Origin: Beroe forskalii
Lineage: Eukaryota > Ctenophora > Nuda > Beroida > Beroidae
Assembly (NCBI GenBank): GCA_011033025.1
Contig: WFMF01000116.1
Coordinates: 395,041-459,040 of the forward strand
Direction of reading: 5' to 3'
Length of the DNA: 64,000 bases
This document shows positions 40,421 through 64,000 of this stretch, one piece after another (within the stretch, counting starts at the first letter, position 1; the number at the start of each line of letters is the position of its first letter). The notes under the pieces are model-generated. The model was given only the letters and a program-made list of their open reading frames with translations. It was not told the DNA's origin and made no database searches. A program made the translations under genes and the position numbers.

Positions 40421-40749
40421 GAAAATTGACGGATTGCTGGATTGCATTCATTAGTTCATTCATTTTCCGAAGAGTATAATAATATACTGTATTTTCCGAA
40501 GAGTATAATAATATACTGTATTTTCCGAAGAGTATAATAATATACTGTATATGATCGTACCGGTACACGTGCAATGTCAGTATTTCAATCACGCATCTTT
40601 TCAACGTCCTTCTAAGGATTGCATCGAAGGAAAATTGACGGATTGCTGGATTGCATTCATTAGTTCATTCATTTTCCGAAGAGTATATGATCGTACCGGT
40701 ACACGTGCAATGTCAGTATTTCAATCACGCATCTTTTCAACGTCCTTCT
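40421..40749. repeat. Nested tandem duplication
   Basis: GAAAATTGACGGATTGCTGG and its ~60-bp context occur at 40421 and 40630. A ~34-bp unit with TTTTCCGAAGAGTATAATAA is repeated three times inside the first copy. The ATGATCGTACCGGTACACGT stretch with its ~60-bp continuation occurs at 40550 and 40686. The duplication unit is thus ~200 bp with internal repeat expansion in one copy. Confidence 0.85.
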
Positions 40750-40929
40750 TTTATTGAATAGGCAAGGGGCCGTCCTTCATCGAGGGGAAGTAGTTTAACA
40801 AAAGCGACAGACGTTAGCATAATGATAAGGGGAGGGTATGTTAATTAGGCTAATTGTGTACGGATTAGATTCCGATCACATTTGTTAATTGGGTTCCTGT
40901 CACGTTCGTTGATTAGATCACAAGCACAC

Positions 40930-42776
40930 TCGCAGATAGTGATTGGATTCAAATACGTCCGCTGATTGGATTCCAAACACGTTTACTGATTGAATCCCAA
41001 TACGTTCACTGATTGGATCCAAATCACGTTCACTGATCTTATTCCACTCGCAATCGCTGATTTGATTCCAACCGCGTTCGCTCAAGCGATGATTGGATTC
41101 CAATAGCGTTCGCTGATTGGATCCCAATCACGTTCGCTGATTGGATCCCAATCACGTTCGCTGATTGGATCCCAATCACGTTCGCTGATTGGATCCCAAT
41201 CACGTTCGCTGATTGGATCCCAATCACGTTCGCTGATTGGAATCCATTTCCAATAAGCGATTCAGCGAACGCGACTAGAATCCAATCAGGGAACACGACT
41301 AGAATCCAATCAGAGAACGCGATTGGAATCGAATCAGCGATTGAGCGAACGCGATTGGAATCCAATCAGGGAACACGACTAGAAATAGAATCCAATCAGA
41401 GAACGCGATTGAGCGAACGCAGTTGGAATCAAATCAGCGATCGCGAGTGGAATAGGATCATTGAACGTGATTGGGAATGGGATCCAATCAGTTGCAGTGA
41501 CGTGTTGGGATTCAATCAGTAAACGTGTTAGAAATCCAATCAGTGTATGTGATTGGAATTCAATCAGCGAACGCGATTGGGATCCAATCAGCGAACGTGA
41601 TTGGGATCCAATCAGCGAACGCGATTGGAATCCAATCAGCGAATGCGATTGGAATCCAATCAGCGAACGCGATTGGAATCCAATCAGCGAACGCGATTGG
41701 AATCCAATCAACGAACGCGAGTGGAATCCAGTCCGCGAACGCGATTGGAATCCAGTCCGCGAACGCGATTGGAATCCAGTCTGCGAACGCGATTGGAATC
41801 CAGTCCGCGAACGCGATTGGAATCCAATCAGCAAACGCGATTGGAATCCAATCAGCGAACGCGATTGGAATCCAATCAGCAAACGCGATTGGAATCCAAT
41901 CGGCGATTGTATTTGGAATCCAATCAGCAAACGCGATTGGAATCCAATCAGCGAACGCGATTGGAATCCTATCAGCGAACGCGATTGGAATCCTATCAGC
42001 GAACGCGATTGGAATCCTATCAGCGAACGCGATTGGAATCCTATCAGCGAACGCGATTGGAATCCTATCAGCGAACGCGATTGGAATCCAATCAGCGAAC
42101 ACGATTGGAATCCAATCAGCGAACACGATTGGAATCCAATCAGCGAACGCTATTGGAATCCAATCAGCGAACGCGATTGGAATCCAATCAGCGAACGCGA
42201 TTGGAATCTAATCAGGGAACGCGATTGGAATCCAATCAGCGATTCAGAGAACGCGATTGGAATCAAATTCAAATCATCGATTGAGCGAACGCGATTGGAA
42301 TCCAATCAGCGAACCCGACTGGACTCCACTCAGCAAACGCGATTGGAATCCAATCAGCCAACGCGATTGGGATCCAATCAGCCAACGTGATTGGAATCCA
42401 ATCATCGATTGAGCAAACGCGATCGGAATCCAATCAGGGATTGAGCAAACGTGATCGGAATCCAATCAGCGAACCCAACTGGAATCCACTCAGCAATCGC
42501 GATTGGAATCCAATCAGCCAACACGATTGGGATCCAATCATCGATTGAGCAAACGCGATCGGAATCCAATCAGGGATTGAGCAAACGTGATCGGAATCCA
42601 ATCAGCGAACACGAGTGGAATCCATTCAGGAAAAGCGATTGGGATCCATTCAGGAAAAGCGATTGGGATCCATTCAGGAAAAGCGATTGGGATCCAATCA
42701 GGGAACGCGATTGAATGGAATCCAATCATCGATTGAGCGAACTCGATTGGAATCCAATCAAAGAACAAGATTGGTA
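40930..42776. repeat. 24-bp satellite array with CCAAT boxes, inverted near 41250
   Basis: Roughly 75 units of GATTGGAATCCAATCAGCGAACGC. Two thirds of the unit (GATTGGAATCCAATC) is a near-perfect palindrome with one ATTGG and one CCAAT. From ~40930 to ~41245 the units run in the opposite orientation (CGTTCGCTGATTGGATCC-type); they flip at ~41245-41270 and then run uniformly to 42776. Because 24 is divisible by 3, long open frames appear in several frames on both strands; these are not genes. The array ends 41 bp before the tetraspanin start codon. Confidence 0.95.
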
Positions 42777-42816
42777 TTCAATTTTCATGACCAAGTTTTT
42801 CCTTATTTACAGAAAC

Positions 42817-45800
42817 ATGTATGCAACTGCACGAGAACAGAAAGGGCAACCGATTGTTCCTCCCAACCCAATCAGATCACATCGGAACACAGCACGATTG
42901 ATAACAGCCGTGATACTAGTCTGGACGATCATCACCCTGGCTATTGGATGCTGCTTACTATCAATCGGAATATTTCTGTATTTCAACGAGGACATAGCTT
43001 ACCCCTATCTGGACATGATACTCGAAATAACGTTTGATGTGAGAATATTGATGGCCACTTGCGGGTCATTGGTCGCACTGTCTTCTGTCGTGGGAGCCGT
43101 GGGGTGCTGTACCAAGAAAAAACATCTTTTACAGGTACAGTAGTACCACTAGCAGAAGTAGAGTATGCTTTATGAGAAACACCCCCAAACACAATGTGTA
43201 AACAAAAAATACTCATTCAATTCATCATTGCAACGTTGAATATTTTTCAATGAAATAATTAATAAATGTATGAATCATAACGTACAGTAATTCACAATGC
43301 ACTAAGAAGCAATCAAATTTACTTATTCTTCATCATGTTGCCAATGTGTTACTGCTATGTCAGTAACCTGTGGCCACAGGCCTTGAGCAAAGATCAACAT
43401 ATTGAAAGCCCACATTTCATCTCCTAGACTTAAACCTTAAGTTGAAATCGGTAATATAATCGAATTAATTTGATATAATTAAAATAGAAAATCGGTAATT
43501 ATCCTACTCAATAATTGGTTTTCAAACGTTAATACCTTATTGACCCTTATTTATCTGGCCCTGGAAGAAAAAAGAATTAGAGATTCGTGTCCAAAAAGGC
43601 CGGCTAAATTAAGGCCAATAGGGTAGGTAATAGGTACACAAAGCTGATAACAACGAATATATCAAGATAACATGGAACTGTAGTCTGTAACTACCACTGC
43701 CTGCTTCAGGTATACTGCTACAGCACTATTCTCTCTCTGATAAGCCTGTGTGGGTGGCTCTATTCCTTACTATCGCAATGAGCGGGTACGTGCATGATGG
43801 GTCTAATACTGATCTGTGATTGATATCCTAAGACGAAGAACTAAATATTTTTGTTGATACTTGGTGCCCAAATCAAAGGGCCAATAGTTAACAATTAATG
43901 CCCAACAGTTATAAATTCTAATATGGCCGACATCAATGATGCTCGATGCCCAGTGAAATGGTGTAGGTTGTGTCTCAGATTTTTCGTCTAATCTAAGTCC
44001 TAAGATTAGCACTACCTTAGGTGTATTTATGGAGGTTGTAATTTGGGGATTTTTCAGAAAAATCCCCATTTTTTCAAACACCATGACAGTTCAAAATGAC
44101 GTCATAATCATAAGTTAACTAGAGTAATGACTTGAGAAATATCCCCAAATTGCACCCAAGCAAATTTGTAAACACCAAAATTTTACTCCAAATAAATACA
44201 CCTCCTAAGGTATTTGCAACTCCTACATCCCCCAGGATTCAAGATGTCCTCCTCTACAACTGTCTGACCCGCCTGAAGGAGCCCTCACCCCATTACTCCG
44301 TACTCTTTGGAGACATGGAATCTACAACGGGCTGCTGTGGGTGTCTGGGGTCTGAAGATTACTCCAAACTAAACCTTGGCTCACCACCTGACTCCTGCTA
44401 CACTCAGGGCGGCCTACATGACATGGGGTGCCTCCCCCTACTATACCAAGTGAGTTGGGGGCTGGGAGATACCTGAGTTTCATTGGAAGTGCGATACTGA
44501 TAGCAGATTTACTGTGATCTAATGAACTCATGAAGCACAATACCATCCCATTTCCAGCAATCTGGCACTAAGCCAACCAACGCAATCACTGCTCTCATCT
44601 AATAATCATATCACCCAGTATTTGTTCTGCTCACTTCACGGCAGCAGAAAACAGGCGCCCACATCTACTCGAGTATATTATCACTCAGGAGAGTAAGCAT
44701 GATAAAGCTATTGTTCGAGTACACGTACCACTCTATTAGAACTAGCTAGAGCATACGTACAGTACGTACCCAAGCTCTAGCGGTATTATGCTAATAATGT
44801 CGTGTAATTATTTCTAACGCTTACTCATCATCATCGTGGGCCGTACTCTCTGCAATACCGGGGGTGGTTTAATGACATTCCTACATACCTTTATCAGCCG
44901 GTCACTGCTCAGCCTATAATACACAGATCCCATTGCTTTGCACGTGCTTATCCGCCCTTATTATCAATCACTCTGTTACTTTTGCCTGTGATTATTAATA
45001 CCAGTTATACTATTTGTCCGATGTTTCTCGGGGACTTCCTTTCATTTGTGTACGAGCTGGGTAACAGCTTGAGTCAGGTGCTGGTTATGCTGTATAACTT
45101 TGTCAACGTCATCAAGGAGCTCTTATTCATCTTTAGGTAATTATTTGACAATACTTCCTATACAAATTGATTGTGAGCACGTCAATTCATCGAAAATCAA
45201 CACATTCAATGCATCAGCATGGTCAATGAAAGTCCTCCCTTGATAAAACTTGCGCCCACATTCCCATACAAAGCAGATCATCACATTCTGCAGCACTTCC
45301 CACTCTTTTTGAAGTTTTGAACTCCATTGGCTGTCACTCTCACAGTCACACCCTTCTCCACATCAACAGTACTTCCTACTTCTTTTAAACAGTCACCCCC
45401 ACCCTCAGGTAGCATCAGATAACAAGGAGTTCCTGATCTCAGGGTACGTGACCATCTCCTCTTCTCCTTCTCATTGCCATCCTAACACACTACTTCATCC
45501 TCAAGCTCTCGGACATTGCAAAAGCGTGGGCGCGGCGCGTCACCCCCACCGGGGCAATGCAGCAGAACTGGGTCACCAACAACAACATGAACGTGATCAA
45601 GGAGGAAACGAGCAAGAGAAGGGATGAAACGAGCAAGAGCAACAGCAGCACGGAGAGGAGCAGCAAGAGCAGTGGGTTCTGGAGCATGGGCCGGCGCCTG
45701 AGCAAGGCCAGTCTGGTGAGCAAGAGGAACAGTCTGGCTGAGAGTATCCGGAGCAGAGCCAGCAGTAACGCCAGTACAAGTAGCTCGAGACACTCCACTT

Positions 45801-46141
45801 CCAACAGAGTGGATATGAGCATTGTAAACCAGAGCACTGTGAGGGTGACTGGCCCTAACAGGATCAGTGTGAGTGCTATAAACCAGATTCAGGTGAAGAG
45901 TCAGAGTCTGCCGAGTCAGGGACTGAAGAGGGGTGGGTATCCAGGAGAGAGGAGTGTCAACAGAACCTACGATAACCCTGTGGTTATCAGCAACAGAAGC
46001 AGGAGCCATGACCCACCATCTACTGACAGAGGTAGGAACAGGAACAATGAACCTCCGAGACACATCAACAGGAGCAGCAACCTGCAACCTGGGCCAGGGA
46101 GGCGGCAAGGGAGGGTGGGAACACCCTACGTAGACTTCTGA
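42817..46141 (+). CDS. Tetraspanin with long Ser/Arg-rich cytoplasmic tail (apparent frameshift in TM4)
   Basis: Exons 42817-43134, 43724-43785, 44236-44449 and 45409-46141 join in phase. TM1 (~24-50: LITAVILVWTIITLAIGCC), TM2 (~74-96, GSLVALSSVVGAVGCC) and TM3 (VWVALFLTIAMSG) are followed by a large extracellular loop with the diagnostic CCG, PPDSC and GC, giving the tetraspanin disulphide pattern. Exon 4 starts VASDNKEFLISG and should enter TM4 (PLLLLIAILTHYFIL), but the two are in different frames: one base must be lost or gained near 45450-45456. This is either an assembly error, a pseudogenising change or a mis-set splice site. After TM4 comes KLSDIAKAWARR and a ~190-residue tail rich in Ser, Arg and Asn. 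An alternative exon around 45060-45139 (LGNSLSQVLVMLYN) cannot be excluded. Tetraspanins organise membrane microdomains. Confidence 0.72.
44015..44210. mobile_element. MITE-like inverted-repeat element in tetraspanin intron 2
   Basis: CCTTAGGTGTATTTAT, then AATTTGGGGATTTTTC, at the left are mirrored by GAAATATCCCCAAATT and AAATAAATACACCTCCTAAGG at the right. The right end lies only ~25 bp before the exon that starts at 44236, so element sequence may supply part of the splice-acceptor context. Confidence 0.6.
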
Positions 46142-47388
46142 GGGATCAGTAAACACTACACTTACAGCAGACTTAAGGACTGAATTTAGACCCTCAGATG
46201 AAAGAGGAAAGAGACATATCGGATGCTATGCGACAGAATGCAGCCGATTCACAACTGTATTAATAATATCATTATGTACAGTTAAACTGCTTAGAATACG
46301 AACTTACGAAGTTCAGAGTTTGTACCTTAAATTATCATGATCATTTCATTTGCAACATAATCTTCACTGCAACGATGAAAGAATCAATAACAGGAACTAA
46401 AGCATGAACTAAAATATTCTTAACGTTATAACTAAAAAAACGCTTAATTGATTAAGGACTTATTTCTTGGTCACCTTTTACTCTTATCTACGAACTTACG
46501 AAATGAAATATAAGGAACTATATTTAATTATTAAAACAATTATAAGCAGATATGATAATGAAGTTGTTAGTTAAACCTATACCAATTAAGATAAGAAACA
46601 TTAAGATAAATTTCACATTTCGTATCTAAGCTGTGTTGAACTTGAAGAATGATTTTATTTTCATGCACCACCCAATGCATGTGCATTTAATTTTCTAATG
46701 ATTGATAAATTCAATGCATGTAAATGATTTTTATAATTAGGATATAGACGATATTTGGATTATTAATCACTGTTAGTCTTAGCTTAGAGAATGTTAGGTT
46801 TAGTGTAAATTTTAATCAGATGAAAATGTTTATTACGTGTATTTGCTTCGCATAAGAAACCGAATAGTATCGAATTTTCCATACTACATACATTTTTTCT
46901 TATCGAAAAAATACAATTTTCATGAAGCATAACCGGTTCATACACTTTTAAAAGTCACGAAGCACATGCGTAATTAAAGGGAGACCAGCCAGGGACAGAT
47001 AAGACGGCATACGTAATACGAAACATCGGTGAAGTTTTCATATTATGTCCATTTGCGTATTTCGGCACATGATATTTAATTGAGCTTCAAGAAAGAAAGA
47101 ATTGCTCAGAAGATTCCACCTGTAATTCCGTCTCTATATTAGGAGTACGCCCCTGTGTTCTGGAGGGTTACCATTAGTTCATTTAATGAGTGCGAATGAC
47201 GTTCAAGTATTTAATTGGACCTTCTCATATTTGATAAATTACTAGTCTGCAACCAAATATGATAATTGTCACCAATTAATTCAAGGCTGATTGACGTCAT
47301 TATTTCGTGTCCAATTCGTCCTACAGTAGCAAATACTTGTCCTAAGTTACAGTAGCAATACTGAGACCAATTACCAAGGCATTCTCTC
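46142..47388. other. AT-rich intergenic DNA between convergent genes
   Basis: 1.25 kb separating the tetraspanin stop (plus strand) from the stop of the minus-strand gene at 47389. No exon is recognised. It presumably contains both 3' UTRs. Confidence 0.5.
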
Positions 47389-49270
47389 TTAATACGGGTC
47401 CAGAGACTCCGGAACAACATGGCCCCAGACCCTCCTCAGTCTCCTAGCCACCATCCCCACGCCCCTCAAATGTTCGGGAGTGTCTTCCACATAGACCCGT
47501 GGGGGAGGTCCACTGTGCTCTGGCGTGTCTATCACCTTCCCTCGTCCAGTGTTCTCAGGCGTGTCTATCACCGTCCCTCGCGTCCTACTACCCCGTCCTG
47601 TGCTCTGGGGGTCTCGGGGCGTCCGCGGACTCTCGAACACCACCCTCCGCTTCACACTCTCCACGTTCTCCTTGTCCTGGTCAGGTGGCATGTAGGGTTC
47701 ACTGAAGGAATCAACGTGGGGAGGAGCGACCCTTCGAGCGTGTTTCTTACTCCTCGCTGATTTGCACTGGGAGTACCCAACCCTCTCGAAGCTTTGGTCT
47801 TCATCAGCTGATCTGGGAGCTGGTGATTTAATGTCAGTTTCATCAGGTGTTTTGCATTTTGAGAGTTCAAGGTCATGTGATTTGATATCGGCAGGTGTTA
47901 CATCATGATCTAGAAAGTCAGGTTCACATGCGCTTCCCCCGGTATCGCCGGTTGGTGGAATGTGACTTCCACTCTCCCTAGAGCCCGACAGAAGACTCAG
48001 CTCGTGAGTCTGTGACATGTTGTCACCGGTGGGCACAGGACGCGAGGTGTTATCCCTCATCTCACTGATGTTCCCCCTCATCTCACTCTCACTGATTGAG
48101 ATGAGCAGATCACTGTCGTTGTCACTGATGTCAGCATGGCGAGGTGTTTTCAGGTGACGGTGGTGCGGGTTGAAGCAGTCCGGCTTGCTACACGGTATAA
48201 CGTCACCATCACGCTGAGGTGGTTTCCGGGACAACTTCCTCCGTACTGTCACCTGCCCGAACTCGTCCACTGATATCTGGGTTAGAAAAGAGTGTCAAGA
48301 GATACAAAATTAAGTGTATTTTAATTACATAAAAGCGCGAATTCTCAGCTCAAATTTATTTTAAATTCTGATTTGGGGCTATCCACAAAGGACGTCCGCG
48401 AAGAGGGGGAAGTCTGGCATATGCGAGTATGCGGGCGTTTGCGGAATTTTGGGAGAGGTGCTTGACCAAATACGGACGTCCGCATTTATGAAAATTTTGG
48501 TCGATTTGACTTAGATTTTTGAATTTGAGTCAAATAATAAAGTTGATTTCGTCACCATATACGAGAAAACGGGAATAAAGATGATCCCACAAAAGATTTT
48601 GAATGAAAATGTGGACGTGCAGAGGGGGTATTTCAGGTTGGGGAAGTTTGCGGACAAGGGGGAGGGAGGGTTATAACATAGCCAAAATTTAGCGGACGTC
48701 CTTTATGGATGGCCCCATTGGTTATAGAGCACCAGATACCCAATAAATTATGAGGTATATCTTAAAAAGTTCGTGCCATTCGAGGGATGTCTTGAACTTA
48801 AACTATCCCGACACTGACGGTTAGCCGGTGGTTTTGGGTTCCCTCAAGCCATCAAATGCTGTGTTGGCACAAGCCATATTGCTTACCCATGACTTATCAA
48901 GATCCAGAACACTGACAGATGGTGCTCCGATAGGATTTAGTGCAGCACAAGGTCGGTCAGGACTGTTAAAGGAGGCGTCCATGGGACTCTCGGAGAATGG
49001 CAATGGAGCCATCTTCCGCTTCCTCTTTCTAGGTACTGAAAATGCATTCCATGATTGGTTGGCATAGAAATAATATTAATAGGAATGCTTTCGTAGAAAA
49101 AGGCATTTTAAGATTTAAACGATGCGCTGAGGTGGTATTCATAGAAATCAGCATTGAAATTTGAAAATGATATGAAAAGCATTTTGAAAGTATGTAAAAA
49201 GTTCAATAAGACTACCTTTCCTTGGTTCTGTGAAGTCTGACAAAGAAACATCGCTTACTGAGGTATCCAT
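47389..49270 (-). CDS. Uncharacterised 363-aa protein with PP1-docking-like motif and DTPE repeats
   Basis: Three exons: 49270-49216, 49035-48887, 48276-47389, all junctions in phase. Not recognised as a known family. Visible features: a short acidic/Ser-rich N-terminus (MDTSVSDVSLSDF), a basic cluster PRKRKRKM (likely nuclear signal), a conserved-looking segment VLDLDKSW-ISVDEFGQVTVRRKL, a possible metal-binding patch CSKPDCFNPHHRH (~residues 100-113), and a long polar region with SP/TP sites. Towards the C-terminus are DKENVESVKRRVVFESP, where RVVF fits the RVxF docking motif for protein phosphatase 1, and three D-T-P-E repeats (IDTPEN, IDTPEH, EDTPEH). The end is basic/hydrophobic (ARRLRRVWGHVV). 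A nuclear, cell-cycle or chromatin role is a guess from composition only. Confidence 0.72.
48375..48716. mobile_element. MITE with 25-bp terminal inverted repeats (in intron 2 of the 363-aa gene)
   Basis: Left end GGGGCTATCCACAAAGGACG-TCCGC and right end GCGGACGTCC-TTTATGGATGGCCCC match at 23 of 25 positions as inverted repeats. It is 342 bp with no coding sequence. A partial copy is near 31400-31475. Confidence 0.8.
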
Positions 49271-50839
49271 CCTAGGAAATAGAAAATGTTAAAACATGAA
49301 TTAAAGCTTCTTTGTCGCTACTCTAAAAACCAATGCAGTTGCCATTTGAACGAAAACTTTCTGCAAGATAGGTACGTCATTTTATTTTGAAAACTTCAAT
49401 TTCCAAACATATTATGGCGATGAAATACTAGAACGCAATTAATGTTTAATTGTACAAGATGCTAGGGGACGATTTCCGAACAAAGAATGTTTACCCTTTA
49501 CTAGAGCTTTCATGCCTACTCGCAAAAAGCCTAAAACACGAATTCACAGGACGGTGAGACAGACGAAAGCAAAGATGATGAGATTCAAATGATTGACTGT
49601 CATGTTCGGTCTGGCCAGGAATTTAAATAAATGCCGCGCGCGTGACGCGCACAAACAAGAAATCGGGGTTGAGATATTGCTACTGTCTTCGCGCCCGCTC
49701 GCAAGCACTATGGAATCCACCATTTTGTGACCGATGGCACATTTTCAATATAGCCCTTAGCTGCCGGTTACTGGTTCACCGTCCATTAATTGAATATTTG
49801 CAACAAACCGACAATCTGTTATGTATTCTCTTTCAAACAGTGAATTGAAAAATGAACAGTGCGATGGTGTCAAAAGGATGGAAGATAATCGTCCAATTTT
49901 AAACGTGATAGGATCTGCAAAGTATGTATAATGCAAAAATTACACGTTGGATTCTATACATCAAACATAAATTATCAAAATTAACATCACCACTGAGGAA
50001 AATAATTCGAGATTATCGAAAACAGCAAGATATATTACTCACACGATTTAAAATAACATGCTAAACTTTTGATTACTATTTCCAAAAAGATTTTAAATAT
50101 CGGCCCTCATAAGAAAATTCATGCAAATTCAACACAACGATATATTTTAAACGATGATTTAAACCATAGTTCAGGACAAAAGTTTTTCCTCTGCAGAGCA
50201 TTGCTCACTGTTCACACAGATTAACGTTAAACAAAATTGATAATAATATAGAAATAAAAACAGTCTTGACGAGTTAATGATTAGCTTTCTGGAATCTTGA
50301 GAAGATAATCAATCTAAATCCAAAACACTTAAACACAGAAATGAAGAGCTATCAAAAGTGATTAAAACAGGTCATTCACTCTGGTACACTGTTATAATAT
50401 AAATTCCTGTGACATACTTGTGAGTGAAAGTCTGAGCTAAAAGCTTAAAAAAGCATCACATCATGATGAAATGCTAACAGAATATACTTCAAACAAAAAA
50501 TCATGTTCCATCCCTCTCCTAGGAAGCGTCTTTCAGGTTGGGACTCCGGTCGCACATCACCCTAAATACTAGCTGGTATCTAGTACAATTCATTTCAGGG
50601 TTCAAGTATGATCCATATTCCAGACGGCATTTGAGTCAGCTTCCCTCAATATTATTGTAGGATCATGTCTTACGGACAAACTGTCTTAGAGTTAGCACAT
50701 GTCAGAGCAGTATCTGCTCACTGCTGTAATGATTGTAATCAAGGAACCTTTCACTGCTACAGTGATCATTGGACAGAGTGGTATCACTGCTGCAGTGATC
50801 GTTGAAGCAGCACCTCACTGCACCTGTCCCAAAGTACTG
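49271..50839. other. Intergenic region upstream of the 363-aa gene
   Basis: No exon recognised. GC-rich patches near 49633-49700 (GCCGCGCGCGTGACGCGC) could belong to a promoter for the minus-strand gene. The end toward 50839 is the 3' UTR side of the RUFY-like gene. Confidence 0.45.
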
Positions 50840-50882
50840 TCACTGCTGCAGTGATCGTTGAAGCAGCACCTCACTGCACCCA
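50780..50882. repeat. ~43-bp tandem duplication over the RUFY-like stop codon
   Basis: TCACTGCTGCAGTGATCGTT with the following GAAGCAGCACCTCACTGCACC occurs twice, at ~50789-50822 and ~50840-50881, separated by a short spacer. The second copy encodes the last residues of the RUFY-like protein; the first is in its 3' UTR. A further diverged copy lies near 50752-50772. Confidence 0.8.
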
Positions 50883-51994
50883 TCACAAACCCTGAGTGGG
50901 CGGGAGGAGGAGGGGAGGGGCATCGTGTTATCTGAACACTGGTGACAGAAGATACCACCACAGTTCCTACAGTGGTGCTGAGGGAGAGAGTGGGGTTATT
51001 ACAAGGGTATAGAGAGGGGCGGGGTTATTTTATGTTTAGAAGTTACATTGCAAGAAAAGAGAAGATTCGAGAGATGAACGAGGAGGACGGAAAGGGCTAA
51101 GTGCGAGAATCTCCACAACATGATATCATCAGGCACAAAGTACTATTGGAACTTCGTTAATAAAACGCCATGTGTATCGACTGAGCTACTCATCTTGCGA
51201 CTTACCCTTCGCCGTGAGACACTGAAGTTCTTCTTGCAATTCTGACAGCTAGCAGTCTCCTTGTCTGACATCCACTTGTTCTCCTTAGTCAGGTCCACGT
51301 TGTACTGAAGCTCCTCAGCCTTCACCTTAGACCGGCTCAGGTGGTCGCCCAGCTCAACCAGCGCCTGAATCAGACAGGAATTATACTTGTGGGTGTTGTG
51401 GTTTGGCGGTTTGCTTTTAAAATTAGGATTTTTCAAAATTAAACTTAAGTTTATCAATTTTTAGACAAAAGCCCCAAGCTTGCGCTGAAATTTGAACCAC
51501 CGTGTGTAAATTAGGTACATGATGATAACATAGAAAACTGAAACCAGACACCGCTAAGGATACTCTATGAATGTAACCTATCTACTTATCTATGAAAGCT
51601 AGGTGTGTCCACTATGTACATATCGCTGCAATTCCTGTAAGGCTAGGTCCTGAAGTCCCCCAAGATTATACTGCGCATGTGAACTGTATGTACTTAATAA
51701 AACTATACAGTGTACATATTTGTAGGAAACGTGTGTGAGGGTATACATCTACAAGAGTACATAGATACATAATATACATGCACCATACATGTTTACTCGT
51801 CTGATCACCTTTTCTTGCTCGGAGCAGCTGCGTCTCAGATCGTCATTCTCCCTCTGACACTGTTTGAGCGTGCTCCTCAGCTCCACAACGTGGGTAACCT
51901 CAGCTCGCAGCCTCGCTATTTCCTCCCTGTTCGATACGCCCTGCTTCTGTAGGTTCTCTCGCCACTCCCGCTCCACACTGCAACCAGTCTGTGC
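50840..51994 (-). CDS. RUFY: RUFY-like protein, C-terminal coiled coil and FYVE finger (partial)
   Basis: Three exons, all phase 0: 51994-51809, 51364-51206, 50977-50840, encoding the last ~166 residues. First comes coiled coil ([20 protein letters not shown] ... QRENDDLRR), then the RUFY-type segment [20 protein letters not shown], then a FYVE zinc finger. The finger has the leading W (KWMSDKE), paired Cys ([11 protein letters not shown]), the PI3P-binding RRRHHCRNCG, CHQC, and RVCDGC. The protein ends [10 protein letters not shown], like RUFY1/RUFY2 tails. These proteins bind PI3P on early endosomes and Rab/Arl GTPases through an N-terminal RUN domain. The RUN domain and upstream coiled-coil exons are not found between 51994 and the next gene. 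The gene is therefore either truncated or has distant 5' exons beyond a long repeat-filled intron. Confidence 0.85.
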
Positions 51995-53240
51995 CTGTTC
52001 TCTGTGGGAAGAAAGTGGGATGAGAGGAGGGGGGTGTTAGGGGGAATGTGGGGGAAGTGTAAAACGGGGAGTGGGAATTTAATCCGACAATCTGTTCCTG
52101 CTCCACACTGCACCTGGTCTGTGCCTGTTCTCTGTGGGAAGAAAGTGGGATGAGAGGAGGGGGGTGTTAGGGGGAATGTGGGGGAAGTGTAAAACGGGGA
52201 GTGGGAATTTAATCCGACAATCTGTTCCTGCTCCACACTGTTCCAGGTCTGTGCCTGTTCTCTGTGGGAAGAAAGTGGGATGAGAGGAGGGGGTGTTAGG
52301 GGAATGTGGGGAAGTGTAAAACGGGAGTGGAATTTAATCCGACAATCTGTTCCTGCTCCACACTGCACCTGGTCTGTGCCTGTTCTCTGTGGGAAGAAAG
52401 TGGGATGAGAGGAGGGGGGTGTTAGGGGAATGTGGGGAAGTGTAAAACGGGGAGTGGGAATTTAATCCGACAATCTGTTCCTGCTCCACACTGTTCCAGG
52501 TCTGTGCCTGTTCTCTGTGGGAAGAAAGTGGGATGAGAGGAGGGGGGTGTTAGGGGGAATGTGGGGGAAGTGTGAAACGGGGAGTGGGAATTTAATCCGA
52601 CAATCTGTTCCTGCTCCACACTGTTCCAGGTCTGTGCCTGTTCCTTCAAGACAATGGGGTGGGGGAGTAAGGTAAGGGGAAGGGGTTGTGGGGTGAGCTG
52701 AGGTCAGGGGAATGTAAGGGAAGGGGAAGTTTAAAACGGGGAGTGGAAATCTAATCCGTTCCCGCTCCACACTGCAACCAGTCTGTGCCTGTTCCCTGGA
52801 GACCAAGGAGTGAGGGGAGGGGGAGTAAGGTTAGGGGGAGTGGTAGGGAAGGGGAGGAGTGGGAAGGAAGTGGAGGTGTAAAAAGGTGAGTGGGGATTTA
52901 ATCATATCCCGCTCCTCACTGCAACCAGCCTGTGCCTGTTCTCTGAGAGAAGACAGGGGTGAGAGGAGGGGGAGTAAGGTAAGGTGGAATGGTAGGGAAG
53001 GGGAGGACTGGGAAGGAAGTAGACTGTGGAGATGTTAAAAGGTGAGTGGGGATTTAATCTTATCCCGCTCCTCACTGCACCTGGTCTGTGCCTGTTCTCT
53101 GAGGGAAGACAGGGGTGAGAGGTGCAGGTTTTGGGGTAAAGGGGGTAGGAGGGTGGAAAAGGAGTGGGAAGGGGGCTGTGGGGCAAGGGGGAATGGTAGG
53201 GAAGTGGACCAGGTCTTGCTCTCTGAGAAAAGATAGGGGT
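51991..53240. repeat. ~130-bp minisatellite built on the RUFY-like splice acceptor
   Basis: About ten units, with the marker GTGCCTGTTCTCTG at 51991, 52121, 52251, ~52376 and then every ~130-150 bp to ~53210. Read on the minus strand, each unit contains the acceptor CAGAGAACAG and the first ~25 nt of the RUFY-like exon (GCACAGAC...CAGTGTGGAGC). Then follow TTAAATTCCCACTCCCC and a C-rich tract. Units beyond 52650 are more diverged. Only the first unit continues into the full exon. Confidence 0.9.
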
Positions 53241-54062
53241 GAGAGGAGGGGTTGTTAGGGTTAGGGGGAGTGGTTACTGGTTATATCCACTCAGGGAGCT
53301 GAGTGTCGCTATAGCTGGTGTTTGAGTTTTATGTTTTCATGCCCACTTCAATTGGATCCAAGATTGCTATGGCTGTTCAATAAGCTTTTCGTCTACTCGG
53401 GATCTAATCATTGCTATGGGTGTCAAATAAATGAACTTATAAACCGGTCTGTTTTTCGTTTGGAGGTGCCATCCCATTAAGGGCTGATTGGCTGAATTTT
53501 CATTAAGGGGTTGCCGATAAAGGCCGAATTCTCATAATAAAGGGTTTGTGCCGCTTAGGGCTGAATTCCGCAGAGGGTTAGTCCCGCTACCCGAGAGATA
53601 AAGGGCCGGTTAAAATGGTTCAAAAGTAATAGGATTTTCGTTCAAAATGAAGCCGGTTCAAAGGCCGGTAAAAAAGCAGATATAAAGCATACGTGATACG
53701 AGCTACAGATTTCTTGATGATACCTAAAGACCTAAATTCTACAATAGATCAATAGCATGTATAGCATAGATCAATAGCTAGACCAATGAATAGCTGGCTT
53801 CGCATATCCCAAGATCGGTGTTAATGACATTCAATACAATTCATTCTCACACGGTTTACTCTCAAAGCATCGTACTAATGATCGTGATCATCTGATCGGC
53901 ACCCCAATAAAAGAATGAAGAGAGAATATACGATGATTATCATTTTCTTTTCTACTCATTTTCTTGATGCTTCCTCTCACTATTTTTGATAAAATCTTCT
54001 GGACTATTATATCGTAATTTCCTCGTTGAGAATCGTGAATCATTTCGAAGATCCGTTATATC
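53241..54062. other. Non-coding DNA upstream of the galectin-MDC1 chimera
   Basis: No exon recognised on either strand. Short degenerate repeats of AAGGGCTGA, AAAGGCCG and GGTTCAAA type occur at 53475-53670. It presumably contains the promoter of the plus-strand gene starting at 54063. Confidence 0.45.
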
Positions 54063-57000
54063 ATGAGAGGACTTATTTTGGTATTCTTCACATTGATGAT
54101 ACACCAAGGTACGAACTTATTCGCAGTTATTCCAGCAATTTGGGAGATATTTACAGATTTCAGTGTTAGCTGAGAAGTGCCTTTATACCATTAAAGGTGG
54201 TCTCATCGTTCCGCGTCGATCGAATGGACTGATCAAAAACGCGCACAGTAAATTTTTACGATGACGTCTGCGCAAAACAGTAGCTCGAGCAAATGTGTGC
54301 GTTTTTCATTTGATCAGTTTATTTGATCGATGCGGAACGATGCAGGTGCCTAATATTGTGATCTTTCCAACCGTTGGTATAATCGTACTAACTCAGGCTC
54401 TCAAGAACGGTTTGATGAATCAGTAACAGCAAACGAAGAAAAAATGGTCCCCGAAACGGTCATAACAACAGGAACTGTTTTCAACTTGGGATTACGTTTT
54501 ACTGGCATCTATGATCCTTTCTGTAAAATGTCGTTCAATTTGTATCATTCAGATTTGAGTTTCTCATACCGATGCCAATTTCGATTTAAGTACAAAAAAT
54601 TGGTAAAGAATGTGGTGGTGCACAGATCTCAAATAAACGGTACATGGCAAAGTGGTAACGTGGTGATTGGTGACATGCCTGCTCTTACTACGGGCATTAA
54701 CCGGGTGGTTATTCAGATAACAGAACTCAACTATGTTGTGAGTATGAATGGTGTAATGAAAATGAAACACATTTCAGGCAAGAAAACAACCACCAAAAGA
54801 GCCAAAGAAACTGCTCAAGATGATGACGAAGACCTTCCTGAATTTGGTAAATTTTTTACTAAATTTTTCTTTGGTTTTTAATAAACTAATATAGGTTTTA
54901 CAATCAATCGTCCAGAACCTTCCCCCGTAAGCCTTTTGAAATACTCATGAGCATTGAAATAGATCAAAACTCGAATTTTATAAAATGAGAGCCATTTTCC
55001 GTCATTTTTATAGATACTGCTATATTTGAACTTTGACAAGATAAGTTTTGTCCAGGTTTCCATCATAAGAGTTCTATTTAGACTGCGGCTGTACAATGTA
55101 GGTACACTCTTCAGTATATCTAACACATCTCGGTCTTTTCTCAGGGTTGATGGATAGTGAGTGTGAGGAGGAAGAAGATGAGGATGAGGATGAAGTTGTG
55201 GAGTTAGATCTCATCACGTCCTCTCTCAAGCCTAAAGGTAGTGTTTCAGCCAAGGTGGAGCTGAAGACTGAGAAACCAGAAAAGCCAAGAGAACCTCCTA
55301 TAAGTATGTCACTTAAATTTTCATGATTTTAAGTATTCGTTTAACTTATATATTTGCCTGATGTGTCACCAATTAAAGAATTCAAGAAATAGCTTTTCGA
55401 GGGGTTTTTCTCCCAGTGCTATTCATTGATTCGCAAATTCATCAGTTTTTATGAAAGTTATTCCTACACTTTGTATACTTTTTATTGGGTGTGTCGTTAC
55501 AGATGTAATTTGACCATTATAATTCTAATTTTAAAAACTAATTTTAAAAACTTCGCCCTTATCAGAGACAGCTGGAAGGAAGCGTAAACCACCGATTGAG
55601 AAACCCCCTGTGTCCACGAACAATGACTCGGATAGCTGTGATTTCCTGAAGCCGTCCCGGGCTAGGAAATCCAAACTTACTATTTACGAATCGGATGAAT
55701 CACAGGAGGAAGAGACAAGAGCCTCGGCAAGTTCCAACAACCAGAATAAGGGACAATGTCTTGAGGCAGATGTTGATCAAGTCACAAGTATGGGTGATAT
55801 TATCAGCAGAAATTTTTTGATTTAGTTACTCAATAACAATTTATATTCGGTTTTAGTGTAATGTTTTCAAAAATTCTAAAGACTGATAGATCATAAGTCA
55901 TTGAAAATTTCACTTACTTTTCTGAACCAGTTCCTATTCTGAAATCGTATCCCTATTTGATTTTAATCTACTTTTAATTTAGAACTCGGGACGAAGAGGA
56001 AACCAGCTGCTACTAAAAGTTCGATGCCAGCGAAGAAAGATAAGCTTGAGCTTCCCAGCTCCAATCCCAAACGGTCCTCTCGAGCAAGAAAATCCCGAAC
56101 TGTCATGAGTGATTCTGAGGATTCCGACGTGGAAGGTCGGGATGATAGCCTTGAATCCCGTGCATCTACCGCCTCTACCCGGTCTACGAGAGGTAGCAAG
56201 GCAGCTAGAAATACTCCTGCTGCTCCTTCTCCTCCACCACCAACAGCAGTTGTTGATGAGTCTCCCAGAGCATCCCGGAGAAGAAACAAGACTCTATCAT
56301 CTGAGACACCTGCTCCACTTTCTGTGGGGAATAACAAGAACCTTTCATTAGATGCATCGCCTGTTCCAACTACGAGAAGAAATAAGGTATTGGAAGCATC
56401 TCCTGTACCCACTACGAGAAGTAGAAAGACTTCAGAAGCATCTCCCGTTCCAACTTCGAGAAGTAGAAAGACTTCAGAAGCATCACCTGTGCCCACTGTC
56501 TCAAAACGGGGTAGACCAAGGAAAGTGAAGTCTGATGTTAGGGATTTCCTGGACGAAGCTAAGAAGGAATCTCAATCCCGTACTGCCCGAGGTAGAAGGA
56601 ACACAGTTCCTCCAGTAAAGGAAGAAGTGGTGGAAGAGGCTGTTGAGGTGAAGGTTGGGAGAGGACGGGGTAGAGGCAAAAGGGGAGGTGTCAAACAGGA
56701 GCCAGTGGAGGAGGAGATTAAACGTACTCCTTCACCTGTCATAACCATCGGCAGAGGAAAACGCAAAAAGGTGAGTAATCTTAATTTGGGTGACATGAAT
56801 TTCTCCTAAACTGTAAGCGAACGGTACATATGATGCCCTCTGAGTCTTAGCTAGTTGGATAGGCTTTGTGATCTAATCTCAATGAAGTTATCATTTGGAA
56901 ATAACATAATCACGAATCACGATAACTTTTTTATTTAGATTTTGCCATGATGGAATTTTTTCAGACAACTGCACCCCAAGTTGAGGAAGAGGCAGCATCA

Positions 57001-60000
57001 CCATTAGTTAACAAATCCTACAAATCCTCTCCTGCAACACCGTCTAGACGTGAACCGGTAAAAAGCTGTTTAGTTACATTCAAATGATTACCTTACGAGA
57101 CATATTTGAAATTCGGGGATCTTTTCCCATATTTTCGTGCCCCTAAATTAACTTTTTGGTGATTACGTTACGTTTTGGTACGTTTTGGTGAGTTTGACTG
57201 GGCGTGCTCAGGACATCTGCGTCGTGCGCGTCTCCTTCCAGCTCAGCAAGGAGTTGTTGTTCACAGCTGTGTACCCCGGAACAGGAGGTGTATCCGGGAA
57301 CTGCTCAAGGAACATGCCCAAACCGATCTTGAAGCTTTCAAGAAGATTCAGTTGGGAGACATCAGGTGGCAAGATATTCCAAAGCTGAGCTGCTCACACA
57401 CCAAACGAACTGTCGTAGTCACTACGCACAGATAGCTGGGCTTTGGTGTTAATCTGTGGGATGAGTGCCTTGATCCCAAGCCGAGGATGGTGCTTAAACT
57501 GCATCTCGACATCATTTGGAGCATGGTTGTGGATTATCTTCCAAACTTGTATGATGCAGTATCTTTCCTCCGGCGTTGAAGTGACATAAGTTTCAGCTTC
57601 TTGAGGCGGTCCCAGTAACTCAAATCTTTGAGTCCAGTTACCTTTCGGACAAAAAGCAGCGTTGGACGTTCTCTAATTTCTGGATGTCAGCTATCTTGGA
57701 AGGGTTCCAAACAGGGCAGCAGTATTCAAGCCTGGAGCGGACCATTGACTTGTAGAGAGTGAGCATGACGAGGGAGATCGGTCACAGAAAGCGCTAAGAA
57801 CCCAAGAGGACATTTTCCTAGCTCCTTGAACAGTTTGTTCAATATGGGGCGACCATGATCTATCGCTTGAGACGAGGACCCCAAATCTTTAGCAGTGTCT
57901 GTAACTTCAATAACATGTCCTTTGGGAGTTTTTGTACTCTACATTCTCCGGATAGAGAGGTAGTTGCCGTAGAAGGTAGGAACTGTTAAGAGGATAGCTC
58001 AGCAGTTGAAATTTGTCTTCATGGAGCTCCATGTTATTCATGGTTGACCATTGTATTACCCTACACAGGTCTTCCTGTATTTTTTGCCGTACATTCTAAA
58101 CCAAGCACCCTTGATATCAACTTGGTGTCGTCTGCAAAAGCATAGCCCCTTGCAGTTTTTTGAGTGTTGGAAGAAGGTCATTTATGTATAGAAGGAACAG
58201 TATGGGTCCTAGTACTGTACCTTGTGGGACTCCACTTACCACAGGGTTGGGCTGGTGACAAAAACCCTTCCACCTGACAGTTTGGGCTCGGTTTGTGAGG
58301 AACTCTTGAATCCAGGACAAGAGATATTTCCACCGATACCATACCGCTTGAGCTTTTCCAACAGTACTTGATGGTCCACTTTGTCAAATGCCTTCGAATA
58401 GTCAAGATAAATCACATCTACTTCATCATTGCTATTAAGGCAGCGGTATATGAATTCGATGTGGCTAAGCAGCTGGGTCAAGCAACTGCGTTTTTCCTGA
58501 ACCCATGCTGGTTGTTACTGATGAAATTTGATTCCTCGAGATATTCAACAAGCCTGTCTCTCATAACCCGCTCAAAGGTCTTGATGATGTGAGATGTCAG
58601 GGATACTGGCCTGTAATTGGCAGGATCAGTACGGTCATCCTTCTTGTAGACAGGAGTTATGAACTGAGCCTTAAGGACAGGAGGAATGAATCCATTGGCG
58701 AGGGAATCCGACCAAATAATATGTAAAGGGACTGCCAACTCGTCTTTGCATGATGTGAGAATTCTGGCTGGGACGTCGTCATCAGGACAAGCTGAATAGG
58801 GGTCAAGTTCTTTGAGGCTGATATGATGTCTTCTTTGGAAAAGCTGAAGTCTAGAAAGGAGGTGCTCATCCCTTGAGGAAGACCATCCGACTGGAGGCAT
58901 GCACTGATGTCAGCCTTAGCAGGGTCGCTGAATACTTTTGGTATTGCTTTTGGAGAATTTCTGCCTTACTTTTTTAGGTCACTGGTCAATTCATTACATG
59001 CATTACGAAGAACGGGAATCGTAGATTTCGTCTTTTGAAACCGTTTTGCGTATGAAAAGAAGTATTTAGGGTTACTTCTGATAGTTTCGACTGCCTTTTC
59101 TTCCCTACGACTTAGAGTGTTCATAATTTCAGCCTGGATGTTGTAGACAAGGAGATTAACTTCTTCAGTTAGTTTTGGGACTGTGCGGGACTGAGGGTTC
59201 TTTTCTTTCAAGGCACGTATCCGAGCATTGAGTTTTTTCCTTTTTCTTTTCATGGCTGTTACAACGTTGTTTTTTCTGGGCTGCAAGTGGTCAGATGGTG
59301 CCTTGCAGCGAGGGGAGTCGAGGAGCGTTATCTGCAGGACAGTGAGCTTTAGTAACTCGAGGAACTGGTCAGAATCTTTGTCGCAGAGTACCCACAGATC
59401 TTCCCAATTAATTCTACTGAATGCTTCGTTCATGGCACCAAAGTCAGCATTGTGGTAGTCTGCAGCTCGGAAGGAGTGAGGACTGCGATTCTCTGATTGG
59501 GGAGCCGAGATAATACCAAGCATGTCGAATCCAAGCAGTGTTTTAACTAGACAATGGTCCGAGAGGGTGGTTGGTCTGACGTCAACTTCTGCAACATAAC
59601 GTGGTACATTAGTGAGGACAAGGTCAAGGGTGTTTTCACCCCTTGTCGGCTTTGTGACAACTTGAGACAAATGGTTTCTGTCCATGAAGTCAATGAGGTC
59701 TGCGGCAGAGGTTGAGAGAGAGGGACAAGGGCATCTTCCAATCTATATCGGGTAAATTGAAGTCCCCAAGAATATACAGGTCAGGCATCCTGTGGTTGTC
59801 TGAAATGCGGTCGATTGTGTCTTGAAGGTTGGATAGCAAGGAGGAGAATCCTGAGGGGCTGGAGTCTGGGGGTCTGTAGAGTGACGCAATGATGGTATGG
59901 CTCGACTCAATATAGCAACAAACCATATTGTTTTCTTGGTCTTTGAAGCGGGTTACTTCTTTGACAAGTAAGTGGTCATGGAGATAGAGAAGAGAGCCTC

Positions 60001-63000
60001 CGCCGACTCGTTTATCTCTGTCTGAACGATAAACTCTATATCCCTTGATCGAAACTTGTGCGTCTGTTATGTAGTCCTTGAGCCAAGTTTCAGTGACAGC
60101 AATTACAGCAGGAGGGGGGCTACTGCCACTAACAATGGTCTCCTGGATGAAGGGGATTTTCCATCTACAATTGCTGTTGGCAGCAGGTGACACACTCTGC
60201 CCATTGATTAGCACAATGGAGGAAACTGTTGGTTGTACCACTGTGGGATCTGTGGCTGGTACATCATAGAGGTTGCTGGTCCTTGCTGGGACATTGAGGC
60301 TGGATGAAAGGCTTGCTGGGGAGGAGGAGGAGCAGAGGGCTTGGTCTGTAGAGCCTCTTTGATCAGGTCTTTCAGAAGTCGTGGGATCTCTTTCTGGACC
60401 AGGTCTGTGATCTGCTCGTTGAATCCCTGCTTCATGTTCTCCATCTTGTGCAATAAAAAAGCAGAATCGTCGTTCCTGATCAGAGACTCTGGCTTGCTCC
60501 GCTGCTGCACAGTAGGAGGGTAGGGGGTGTCTGAAATGCTGAACCTTGGAATGGTTCGGGTGATGGAAGTAGGAGGTGGTCTGATACTATCATTTCTTGC
60601 AGCAGGGGGAGGTCTAGCAGTTCCCCTGGCCGCTTGACCCTGGTTTTGGTTTTCGTGGTCCACAGAAGGCCTGGATCTAACTGTGCCTTTGAGGTGGAAA
60701 AATGCATTCTTCTCTTGAGCACGTTTGACTTCGCACCGACTCATTGCAGAGCCTTGGATGCCAATATTGGCAATTGGCGCCCTTGTTGCACCCCTTTGGG
60801 GTTGCGTGACCCAAAACGAGTGAACTTGAAACATCGTGGAGGATGAGCTTTGTCGCACTGTCTGCCATTCACGAGCGTCTTGCCCAGTCTACCGTGCGGA
60901 CAGTTTCTTCGTTTGTAGAGCTCACATATTTCTGATGTAGCAACTCTATTAGGGGGGTCAGGTTGACCCCTGGGCTGTTCAGGTTCACGCCCTCTTCTTG
61001 GACTCTCTCGTTCCCCATTTTCATCATCTTCCTCCTCTTCTTCTCCGAGAGCTTCATCCTCTGGAATGGTTTGGAGGTTATCAGAAGCTGCTTCTGACAC
61101 AGCAGAGTAGGTCCGAGTTCTCTTCTGCTGTTTTGGAGGGGGATTGAGAGCCAGGTTATTTTTGGTGAGACACCCAAAGCACAACCATGATGTCCCAGCA
61201 GGTTTGGTGTCACCCATAGCTTCAGACTTGGCACGAATCTGTTCGCAATCATGACTGCCTTGCATACACAGAACGCATGTAAGTAGGGGCGTGTCATCTA
61301 ACTTGTTCTGGTATTTCAGGCTGCAATCACTACACTGAGTCTCGAACAGGGATTCGATCTTGAGGATCAGTCTATCGGCTAAAATGTCTTGATTTCTGTA
61401 GAGCTTCTCATTCGCCTGACTGCGGACAGTGAAGCCAAGGAAGGTAGCACATGCTTCGAGCTGAGCAGCATTGCACCTTTTCAACGATGCCTTGTTGTCT
61501 TCGTACTTCACAGAGGGGTCATAGCTTGACAAAACCCGCTTTGCATTGACATCTGCTTGATTGAGCAGACCACCTATCACAGCGATTTGCTTCTGATGTG
61601 CTTCAGACATGTTCCCAGAGCAGCACCCAGACAGATGATAGGACTGTCGTCAACGATCTGAAAAACGACAGCAGCAGCGAAAGAGGATTGGTGTGAGCGT
61701 CCCAGGGGTAAACGGACAAACACTCAACAAGACAATCCCCTGGTTTGCGACAACAGACGCAAACAAAACTGATAATAGTACTCCAATACTCTGGGATAAC
61801 GGTTAGTTCAAATTCAGAAGTGCAGCTGTAACGTTGTCTTCGTAGCTGCCTCTGAGACCGTTAGTAATGTAATTGACAATCAGATATGTTCTAAGACACT
61901 GAAAATCAACACTGAAAATCAACACTGAAAATCAACACTGATTGGGGTTTGGTTGAGTGATTGTGTAACAAGGTGTATCATGCACAATCAGTCACGCCGT
62001 ACGTACACTTATAGCACGAACAACGCAGGGTTAGCTAATCAATGTGTGTCCCCGCAGCATAACACACACCTCAAATTTGATTGTATAAAGTAGTGTTGTA
62101 AAGTTTAAAACGAATTAAAATTGGTGATTTGATAAATTTGGCTATTAATGCATGAAGTATAGAATTCCCAGACACATTTCAATCAGTGCAGAAAGGTTCA
62201 AAATATCTAAAATGCGGTAACTCAAACACGAATCCATAAAATTTTGAAAATTAATGAATAAAGGGATCCTGGGCACACTGGAGGTTCGCCGACTTCCCCT
62301 AGAGGACCACTATAGCCGCGCCGTATACGAATTAGCTGTAGAATAACCATTTTAAATGGATTTACCAACACGCGTGCTGTTGTTTAGCTATGTAAAATTT
62401 AAAGAAATAAATCACCAGTCTCTGCCAAAGCTGATTTCTCCTTCACGTACACACGAAGCACAATAAACTTAGCCCTTTATTCAACTGACCATTCAATTTT
62501 GACCTGTCTTTTTAACTCAAGCCCTCTTTTTCTACAATTACTGACCATTCAATTTTGACCTGTCTGTTTTTCTCCAGCCCTTCTTTTCTACAACCGTGCC
62601 ATTGATGAACTGTTCTTAAATTAGAACTCAAATCAGCTTATTTTTATCCACAAACGACCTAAATAATGGCTATGATCTTGTACTGGAAATTCTTCTATAT
62701 CAATGACCTCAGTGATATTGGCTTTTCTGAAGTTTTGAACATGCAAAAAGAGGAAAACCCCCTTGTTTAATTTGGGGTACGAAATTTGGAGATGATTGAA
62801 AAAAAATCCCCATACTTTCTAACCCCCAAAATTTCGATCCCCGGAATTATTGCCCCATGTTATTTTGTCTCGTAAGGTTTATGATAAAGAAAAAAAATTA
62901 TTTGATTTGAAAAAATTTGAGTGACTTGACTGGAAAATGATCACCCGAAGTCCTTATCCCACCAACAATGCCCCTCTCCAGTCTCCCCATGTCAATGTTG

Positions 63001-64000
63001 TATCTCGCTGATCGTTCACTCTCTATCCCAATTAGGGCATTCCTATCTCACTGAGTGTTCACTTTCTATCCCATTCAGGGCATAACCCGACCGGAGATTG
63101 TGTACACTGGCATCACAGCATCTGATGCGATGAAGCGATCCATCGCTGCCATGGGAGGGGTCATGTCAGAGGATGTCACCACTTGCTCACATCTCGTCAC
63201 GGACAGGGTTTGTTAGAAATAGACTTAGCAAAATAGTATTCTTCAAAACTCCCTATTTTGGACATAGTGAGTTTTGAAAAGTTATATTTATCACTGTTCA
63301 TGATAGATATTATAGCATTTATCTAAAATCTTACAATAAACAATAACCTTCTCAGATCAAGAGGACAGCAAAGTTCTTGTGTGCTATAGGTCGTGGAATC
63401 CCGATTGTTTCAGAAAATTGGCTGAAAGAAAGCAAAAAGTCTAAACACTTCCTAGGTAGGAATGCGATTGATAATCATCCAGATTATTTATATTCATTTG
63501 AATTAATCATAAATTACCATTGCTTAGCCCAACCTTTATGTTTATCTGATCCCTGGTGATCCTCATTGACATAAAAGCTGATAGCATCACAGTATCATGA
63601 TACCAAGCACCACGATATTCATGAACTACTACTCCTAATGCAAGTAGTAACGAGTAACAGTACTGAACAATAGTGTTAACGAGACTGGTCCGGAATCCGG
63701 AGTATTACCTCAGCTCTTCAGAGTCACGCGTGTCAGGGGAATTCCGGGCGTCTCAGCCATTAACTGTAGTTGCATTCCTGGCATTAGTTGATGAATTGGA
63801 CATATACTATTGTTATTTCCCGAGACTCCTGATTAATGAGGATCCTCTGGTATTTGAGTTGCAATGGGTATTATAGGTGGGATGAACAAGTAGTAGGCCC
63901 CAGGCCCTATGTGGCCAATATAATGCTTTTAATAAGCATGTGTTCTACCACTACCAGGAAGACTTTCCTAGGAAGTTAAAAACGGGAAAAAAAGTAATAG
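54063..64000 (+). CDS. Chimeric gene: secreted galectin-like domain fused to MDC1-like 3' half (partial)
   Basis: Exons: 54063-54108, 54397-54846, 55145-55303, 55566-55787, 55983-56770, 56965-57057, 63079-63207, 63356-63455; it continues past the window. All phases agree and no exon has a stop (about 662 codons seen). Exon 1 is a signal peptide ([16 protein letters not shown]). Exon 2 begins with a galectin-like strand series: [37 protein letters not shown] (conserved Trp), [16 protein letters not shown]. It then runs, without a stop, into [23 protein letters not shown], the paralogue of MDC1-like exon 19. The last galectin strands are missing. Downstream exons give the acidic [13 protein letters not shown] block, ASPVPT repeats, AT-hook KRGRPRK and the first BRCT. 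The donor of exon 1 is also phase-compatible with the old MDC1 acceptor at 54777, so the galectin part could be skipped. Whether it is expressed is unknown. Confidence 0.75.
54397..54753 (+). other. Galectin-like domain, truncated at its C-terminal end
   Basis: About 119 residues with galectin-like spacing: SFNLYHS, then a [14 protein letters not shown] strand pair where typical galectins have HxNPR ... VxN, then NGTW with the sugar-stacking Trp position, then a YVVSMNG hairpin where galectins have (F/Y)xVxVNG. The classical His and Arg ligands are not in their usual places and the final ~25-30 residues are replaced by MDC1-derived sequence, so sugar binding is doubtful. Confidence 0.6.
57200..60241 (-). 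pseudogene. LINE ORF2: APE endonuclease and reverse transcriptase, frameshifted
   Basis: Endonuclease motifs: [41 protein letters not shown], then after a frameshift LDLVLTN and LSDHCLV. The linker has the Lys-rich [17 protein letters not shown]. The reverse transcriptase shows [67 protein letters not shown] and the catalytic AFADDTKL (near 58105-58145, in a shifted frame). The C-terminus has [16 protein letters not shown]. At least five frame breaks exist between 60241 and 57200. FADDTKL and the C-terminal [10 protein letters not shown] block are typical of the CR1/Rex/L2 group. Confidence 0.88.
60208..61610 (-). pseudogene. LINE ORF1 with PHD-like and CCCH zinc motifs, frameshifted
   Basis: The frame 61610-60741 starts [14 protein letters not shown]. 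It carries a PHD-like finger (CSDC ... CVLC ... H-C ... WLCFGC), an acidic [11 protein letters not shown] stretch, and a CCCH-like region ([12 protein letters not shown] ... CDKAHPPRC). It continues, after a frameshift near 60780, with [16 protein letters not shown] and a Pro-rich tail ending YNQQFPPL at 60208. PHD-type ORF1 proteins are known from several CR1-clade elements. It overlaps or abuts the ORF2 start. Confidence 0.75.

Follow-up and report, generated by a model that had tools for sequence, protein, structure and literature searches.

The last 64 kb of contig WFMF01000116.1 from the ctenophore Beroe forskalii (forward strand, 395041-459040; the contig is here C155, the whole stretch is here the window, and position 64000 is the contig end) contain an MDC1-like gene and, downstream on the same strand, a galectin-like coding exon that passes in frame into a second copy of that gene's 3' half. 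In the predicted chimera, a signal-peptide-like exon and a truncated galectin-like domain stand ahead of acidic, AT-hook-like and BRCT exons, all in phase, in agreement with an initial annotation of this DNA. Genome-wide searches were run on the 216-Mb assembly of this one genome (1134 contigs).

The MDC1-like gene, its duplicate and the joint

The parental MDC1-like gene (31503-37192, +) comprises exons E1-E5 (31503-31571, 31921-32079, 32337-32558, 32754-33598 and 33782-33883) and E6-E9 (35180-35308, 35417-35516, 36230-36394 and 36987-37192), with a reading frame that stays in phase to its stop codon and a tandem BRCT whose best match is MDC1. The C-terminal 198 residues, which form two BRCT units, match the MDC1 structures 2azm, 2etx, 2ado and 3k05 with E values of 2.9e-41 to 2e-40, and the PTIP structure 3sqd less well (2.8e-20). 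On the contig, the parent alone carries this C-terminal tandem BRCT of MDC1 type, the duplicate being cut off by the contig end after its BRCT1 exons. A search for the FHA domain gave nine matches genome-wide and none on C155, where an FHA split by an intron could escape and where the parental 5' exons lie outside the gene model. With no FHA match on the contig and a gene model limited to E1-E9, we call the parent 'MDC1-like'. At 35070-35154, in the intron before E6, inspection by eye shows a long-armed inverted repeat.

Self-comparison identifies a direct duplicate of the MDC1-like 3' half on the same strand, in which 31479-36121 corresponds to 54754 through the contig end. The interval 31479-33980 aligns to 54754-57147 with 85.8% identity over 2532 columns, and 34025-36121 aligns in pieces to 62120-64000. 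When 31479-33980 was used as a query, the only long matches among the 40 of 310 candidates scored were the parent and the duplicate; the other 38 come from a short dispersed repeat in the query's 3' end. The duplicate thus extends further than initially annotated, to position 64000, and one of its introns holds a LINE-type insertion of about 5 kb on the reverse strand, with fragments of endonuclease/reverse transcriptase reading frames (57148-62119).

All seven duplicate exons on the contig (7/7, all on the forward strand) retain their acceptor, donor and frame. The E1 copy (54778-54846) forms the end of a joint exon (54397-54846) that consists of the 5' part of a galectin-like exon, a short run of formerly intronic bases, and E1. 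The acidic E2 copy (55145-55303) is 98.1% identical to the parent with its splice sites kept, the E3 (55566-55787) and E5 (56965-57057) copies are placed by alignment to the parent, and the E4 copy (55983-56770) carries the AT-hook-like motifs KRGRPRK and GRGRGR. Two exons encode the first and second parts of BRCT1: E6 (63079-63207) has no non-synonymous and seven synonymous differences from the parent, and E7 (63356-63455) has one and six. The contig stops before E8, and the part of the duplicate on it does not reach parental E8-E9. Compared with MDC1, the duplicate has lost the 5' half and offers only the first BRCT within the contig.

What happens at the joint itself? At 54753/54754 the end of the galectin-side segment is joined to the copy of the segment start (31479) in direct orientation, on the same strand and contig, and the galectin-like frame continues open into the MDC1 copy. 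Homology switches from galectin to MDC1 within about 10 bp: the focal copy reads AATGGTG/TAATGAAAATGAAACACATTTCAG, the parent AACCCT/TAATGGAAATGAAACACATTTCAG, and the galectin paralogue C1 AATGGTGAAGTGATAAG. Comparison of parent, focal copy and paralogues side by side places the breakpoint at 54750-54760 (+), with possible microhomology of about 5 bp (TAATG) that can only be proposed, because the lost galectin bases cannot be read. Downstream of the joint, 54754-54777 (+) correspond to parental intron that is now in frame, with in-frame ATGs at 54756 and 54762 and the old acceptor TTTCAG kept. The fusion unites two identifiable parental gene fragments in frame, the galectin fragment being known by its family; its intact sister was not found in the assembly. 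The old acceptor is also phase-compatible with the signal exon, so that a transcript taking this path would still be led by the signal exon. With the in-frame ATGs and the old acceptor at the joint, translation could start internally or the lectin exon could be skipped.

The initial annotation had placed the start of the duplicate within a galectin-like coding exon, at 54754, and described an open frame across the joint, intronic bases turned coding, downstream exons open and in phase, and an old acceptor compatible with the signal exon. The alignment fixes the first of these to the exact base, and the remainder hold equally well. The open joint is weak evidence by itself, because a single frame of the three reads through it, so that about one joint in three would do as well.

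Stronger evidence comes from the divergence of the two copies, a comparison that the initial annotation had proposed. Over 519 codons, the Nei-Gojobori method gives dN of 0.044 and dS of 0.216 between parent and duplicate, a ratio of 0.20 (95% bootstrap interval 0.14-0.30). The coding indels, of 6, 3, 42, 6 and 9 bp, are multiples of three in 5/5 cases, as against 12 of 44 in introns, and the two BRCT1 exons together show 13 synonymous differences and a single non-synonymous one. Neutral evolution was simulated 5000 times under each of two rate sets, one from dS and all introns and the other from introns 1-5 alone. In both sets, every run put a stop or frameshift into the MDC1 coding part (0/5000 intact), and the MDC1 part of the duplicate has therefore been constrained for most of its history. 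These data favour long-lasting purifying selection on the MDC1 half. An open frame by chance is excluded for this half by the divergence data and simulations, although not for the joint itself. Two alleles of one gene had also been considered; a dS of 0.22 and the presence of both copies on one contig argue against this. The remaining galectin exon stays open in 2% or 10% of the neutral simulations, depending on the rate set, and its integrity is only weakly informative. The earlier suggestion that duplication and exon capture gave rise to a new gene is plausible, and can be sharpened to the junction of a direct tandem duplication; the constraint detected is that on the MDC1 half.

The galectin-like half

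The chimera is predicted to begin with a signal-peptide-like exon of 46 bp in phase 1 (54063-54108, +). A matching 46-bp phase-1 exon (MKRILLICFTLIIHQ/GTACAA) accompanies the paralogue C769, and one copy on C333 has a similar exon; the other three of the five loci scanned gave less similar candidates. To judge from the similar exons at two of five paralogue loci, the predicted signal exon is genuine.

A genome search with the focal galectin-like exon returned 35 matches at an E value of 10, itself included, of which 16 are at 0.001 or below. Built into a profile, 14 paralogues hit galectin-3 chains (best 8.3e-5) and galectin-1; against a two-domain galectin-1 construct the profile reaches 8.3e-9, in a match spanning both domains. 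PF00337 scores 12.4 bits on the focal exon (profile positions 30-102 of 132), below its cut-off of 22.1; among four paralogues it scores 15.7 and 18.7 bits in two and gives no match in the others. Since neither the focal exon nor these paralogues reach the cut-off, 'galectin-like' is the right term. The family differs from galectins as described by PF00337 in its signal-type first exon, found at two of five loci, and in two invariant cysteines, and the focal copy differs further in being truncated. A rotifer survey regards galectins as unconventionally secreted (PMC8878817).

The focal copy lacks a complete galectin domain, the paralogues running about 40 residues past the position of the MDC1 joint. 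Cysteines 42 and 147 (numbered by the C769 row) are invariant in all 14 aligned paralogues. The fusion retains the first without the second, and a putative disulphide and the closing strands are therefore gone. Seven positions left of the joint are invariant or nearly so among the paralogues, and six of them are retained in the focal copy. The truncated fold is probably broken. The canonical sugar-contact residues of galectins are mostly absent from the focal copy. Three of the galectin-like paralogues (L009, L010 and L008) carry acidic, Asp-rich tails behind the lectin domain (DDTGHDDTG..., ADGDE... and DADDDGAGGDGAG).

Origin of the chimera

How could such a gene arise? We propose one direct tandem duplication with capture of a 5' end, followed by retention of the MDC1 part under selection, and judge the chances of this history to be about even. 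A single event would have duplicated some 23.3 kb that start in an MDC1 intron (31479) and stop midway through the galectin-like exon (54753). Copy 1 would then end within the galectin exon and copy 2 would start within the MDC1 intron; with the ends so placed, the galectin start region, the signal exon and the 5' half of the lectin would come to precede the 3' half of MDC1. Such a duplication would produce exactly the observed junction and would leave MDC1 intact beside a galectin-5'/MDC1-3' chimera.

The parental boundary has a feature of its own. In the parental intron, a truncated copy of a dispersed inverted-repeat element (31414-31476, +) ends beside the duplication boundary. Among the 40 of 72 candidates scored for a boundary-region query, 37 of the 39 matches other than the query are the last 60 bp or so of this element. 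Both inverted repeats (GGGGCCATCCATAAAGG..., also given as GGGGCCATCCAT...) are present in 19 of 29 element copies fetched; the length is 350-395 bp in 17 of the 19, and 311 and 132 bp in the remaining two. In 15 of these 19, three flanking bases are identical on both sides (TTA or TAA in seven, by eye), and the element likely makes a 3-bp target-site duplication. Membership of PIF/Harbinger would be a guess. An alternative reading, as an element of TTAA type whose far end lay near 31216, was dropped; the flanks are 3-bp repeats of several kinds. The left end of the parental copy was looked for and not found, this copy being truncated; its right end lies at 31476 or a few bases further, a short 3' match there being equalled by 17 of 300 shuffles. 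The element is absent from the duplicate. This suggests that its edge may have been the site of the break.

Several observations weigh against the tandem history. The contig ends inside copy 2, beyond which the model predicts that 36122-54753 occurs a second time and that a galectin gene stands intact. The assembly search found no second copy of 36130-37199, which includes E8-E9, or of 37200-40800, and none of the protein at 47389-48294 or of the focal galectin exon. A search with 42900-50800 was uninformative because repeats filled the scored candidates (40 of 1838, nearly all repeats). As E8-E9 have no second copy, the sequence following the contig end must be absent from the assembly or lost. 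These unfound copies are the main weakness of the proposal and leave room for an artefact and for an origin in two steps. Divergence is also uneven: E1, beside the joint, is the most changed exon, with seven non-synonymous differences in its 23 codons (7 of 55 non-synonymous sites, versus 43 of 1118; P 0.007), intron divergence is patchy (0.07-0.29), and dS is roughly double what introns 1-5 show. This makes rates and gene conversion uncertain, and gene conversion in patches, or odd rate variation between the copies, is possible. Finally, if the protein acts in the nucleus, a signal peptide ahead of conserved BRCT exons is difficult to explain.

The most serious alternative, unlikely in our estimation, is that the MDC1-like gene was duplicated first, in full or as a longer copy that served as a normal paralogue, and that a later deletion removed the 5' half of that copy together with the 3' half of the galectin gene. 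The fusion would then be recent, with no past selection on it as such, and perhaps in decay. The constraint on the MDC1 half could predate such a fusion, a repeat edge at the break would fit a deletion too, and the focal copy's retention of most conserved lectin positions, though its fold is probably broken, agrees with this order of events. So does the lack of an orphan galectin 3' half in a search that reaches close family members only, where 6/6 matches adjoin an N-terminal part. Against this, two events are invoked where one is enough, the sequence before the joint bears no trace of the MDC1 5' half, and 29900-31478, which covers part of that half, has no second copy among the 40 of 72 candidates scored.

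An assembly or library artefact, in which the last 9.2 kb (54754-64000) were misjoined to the galectin gene, strikes us as improbable. The contig ends 9.2 kb past the joint, and the assembly yielded neither the remainder of the duplicate nor that of the focal galectin, as such a misjoin would have it. However, any repeat common to both sides is at most about 5 bp, so a repeat-driven misjoin is not expected. Moreover, the two partners share an orientation and are no more than 23 kb apart on a single contig, the assembly showed no further contig on which either side continues differently, and the 64-kb window contains no N runs. Slightly less probable again is a real joint without a product, an unexpressed or pseudogenic duplicate, for which the truncated lectin half, the altered E1 and the 3' end off the contig may speak, but which sits poorly with frames and splice sites intact at a dS of 0.22 and with the failure of all neutral simulations to retain them, evidence on which a very recent loss of function would leave no sign.

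Function, precedents and neighbouring sequence

If the tandem duplication gave rise to the chimera, capture of the 5' end would be its likeliest working: the galectin start region would drive the transcript, and the useful product would be the acidic/AT-hook/BRCT part. The lectin half, lacking its closing strands and conserved cysteine, may serve as a leader or be avoided by starting at the joint's in-frame ATGs. The most economical working would be a galectin 5' end captured by an MDC1 C-terminal cassette, with the constraint in the acidic and BRCT exons. A bolder version holds that the whole is translated and under selection, with the MDC1 acidic/AT-hook/BRCT module carried by a secretory signal and a piece of lectin ever since the tandem duplication united two unrelated genes; we doubt this, and rate it hardly above the misjoined contig. 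Were it true, a phosphopeptide-reading module of the DNA-damage response would have been shifted into the secretory pathway, or routed both ways by means of the joint ATGs. Why are BRCT exons conserved behind a signal peptide? The locus sets 5'-end capture with an internal start against a re-routed nuclear module. If real and expressed, it would offer a clean, datable chimeric gene with both donors and the breakpoint readable and a dispersed repeat at the parental edge.

Chimeras formed by tandem duplication are already known; the donor pair here is unusual. A study of Drosophila yakuba reports 76 such chimeras, 24 of them upregulated, and describes the same arrangement as proposed here, in which a direct tandem duplication ignores gene boundaries and sets one gene's 5' end before the 3' end of a different gene (PMC5460883). 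In contrast to these, the present case pairs a secreted lectin-like gene with a nuclear DNA-damage mediator, is an old copy (dS 0.22) and is known from sequence. Genes born by rearrangement are likewise described in PMC6776367. A review covers chimeric and partial duplicates that, like the locus here, combine part of one gene with another genic source and turn intronic bases into coding ones (PMC3449122); according to it, certain classing of such duplicates requires an outgroup. A literature search for an MDC1-galectin fusion gene in genome assemblies found none. In a collection of 5.8 billion proteins, the same fusion was not found at an E value of 0.001 among 7993 candidates scored, nor did the galectin-like family alignment find a match among 791; these negatives say little because the collection may hold few animals.

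Elsewhere in the window, an Rfam scan at gathering thresholds gave no match across the 64 kb. A long open reading frame at 21692-22984 (-) encodes an M14 zinc carboxypeptidase (PF00246, E 3.3e-77), and an RNase H/RVT_3 reading frame at 18275-19297 (-; E 2e-7) is a retroelement fragment. Self-comparison also reveals repeat arrays at 15895-16600, 40863-42782 and 51966-53170, the last of which lies just upstream of the chimeric gene.

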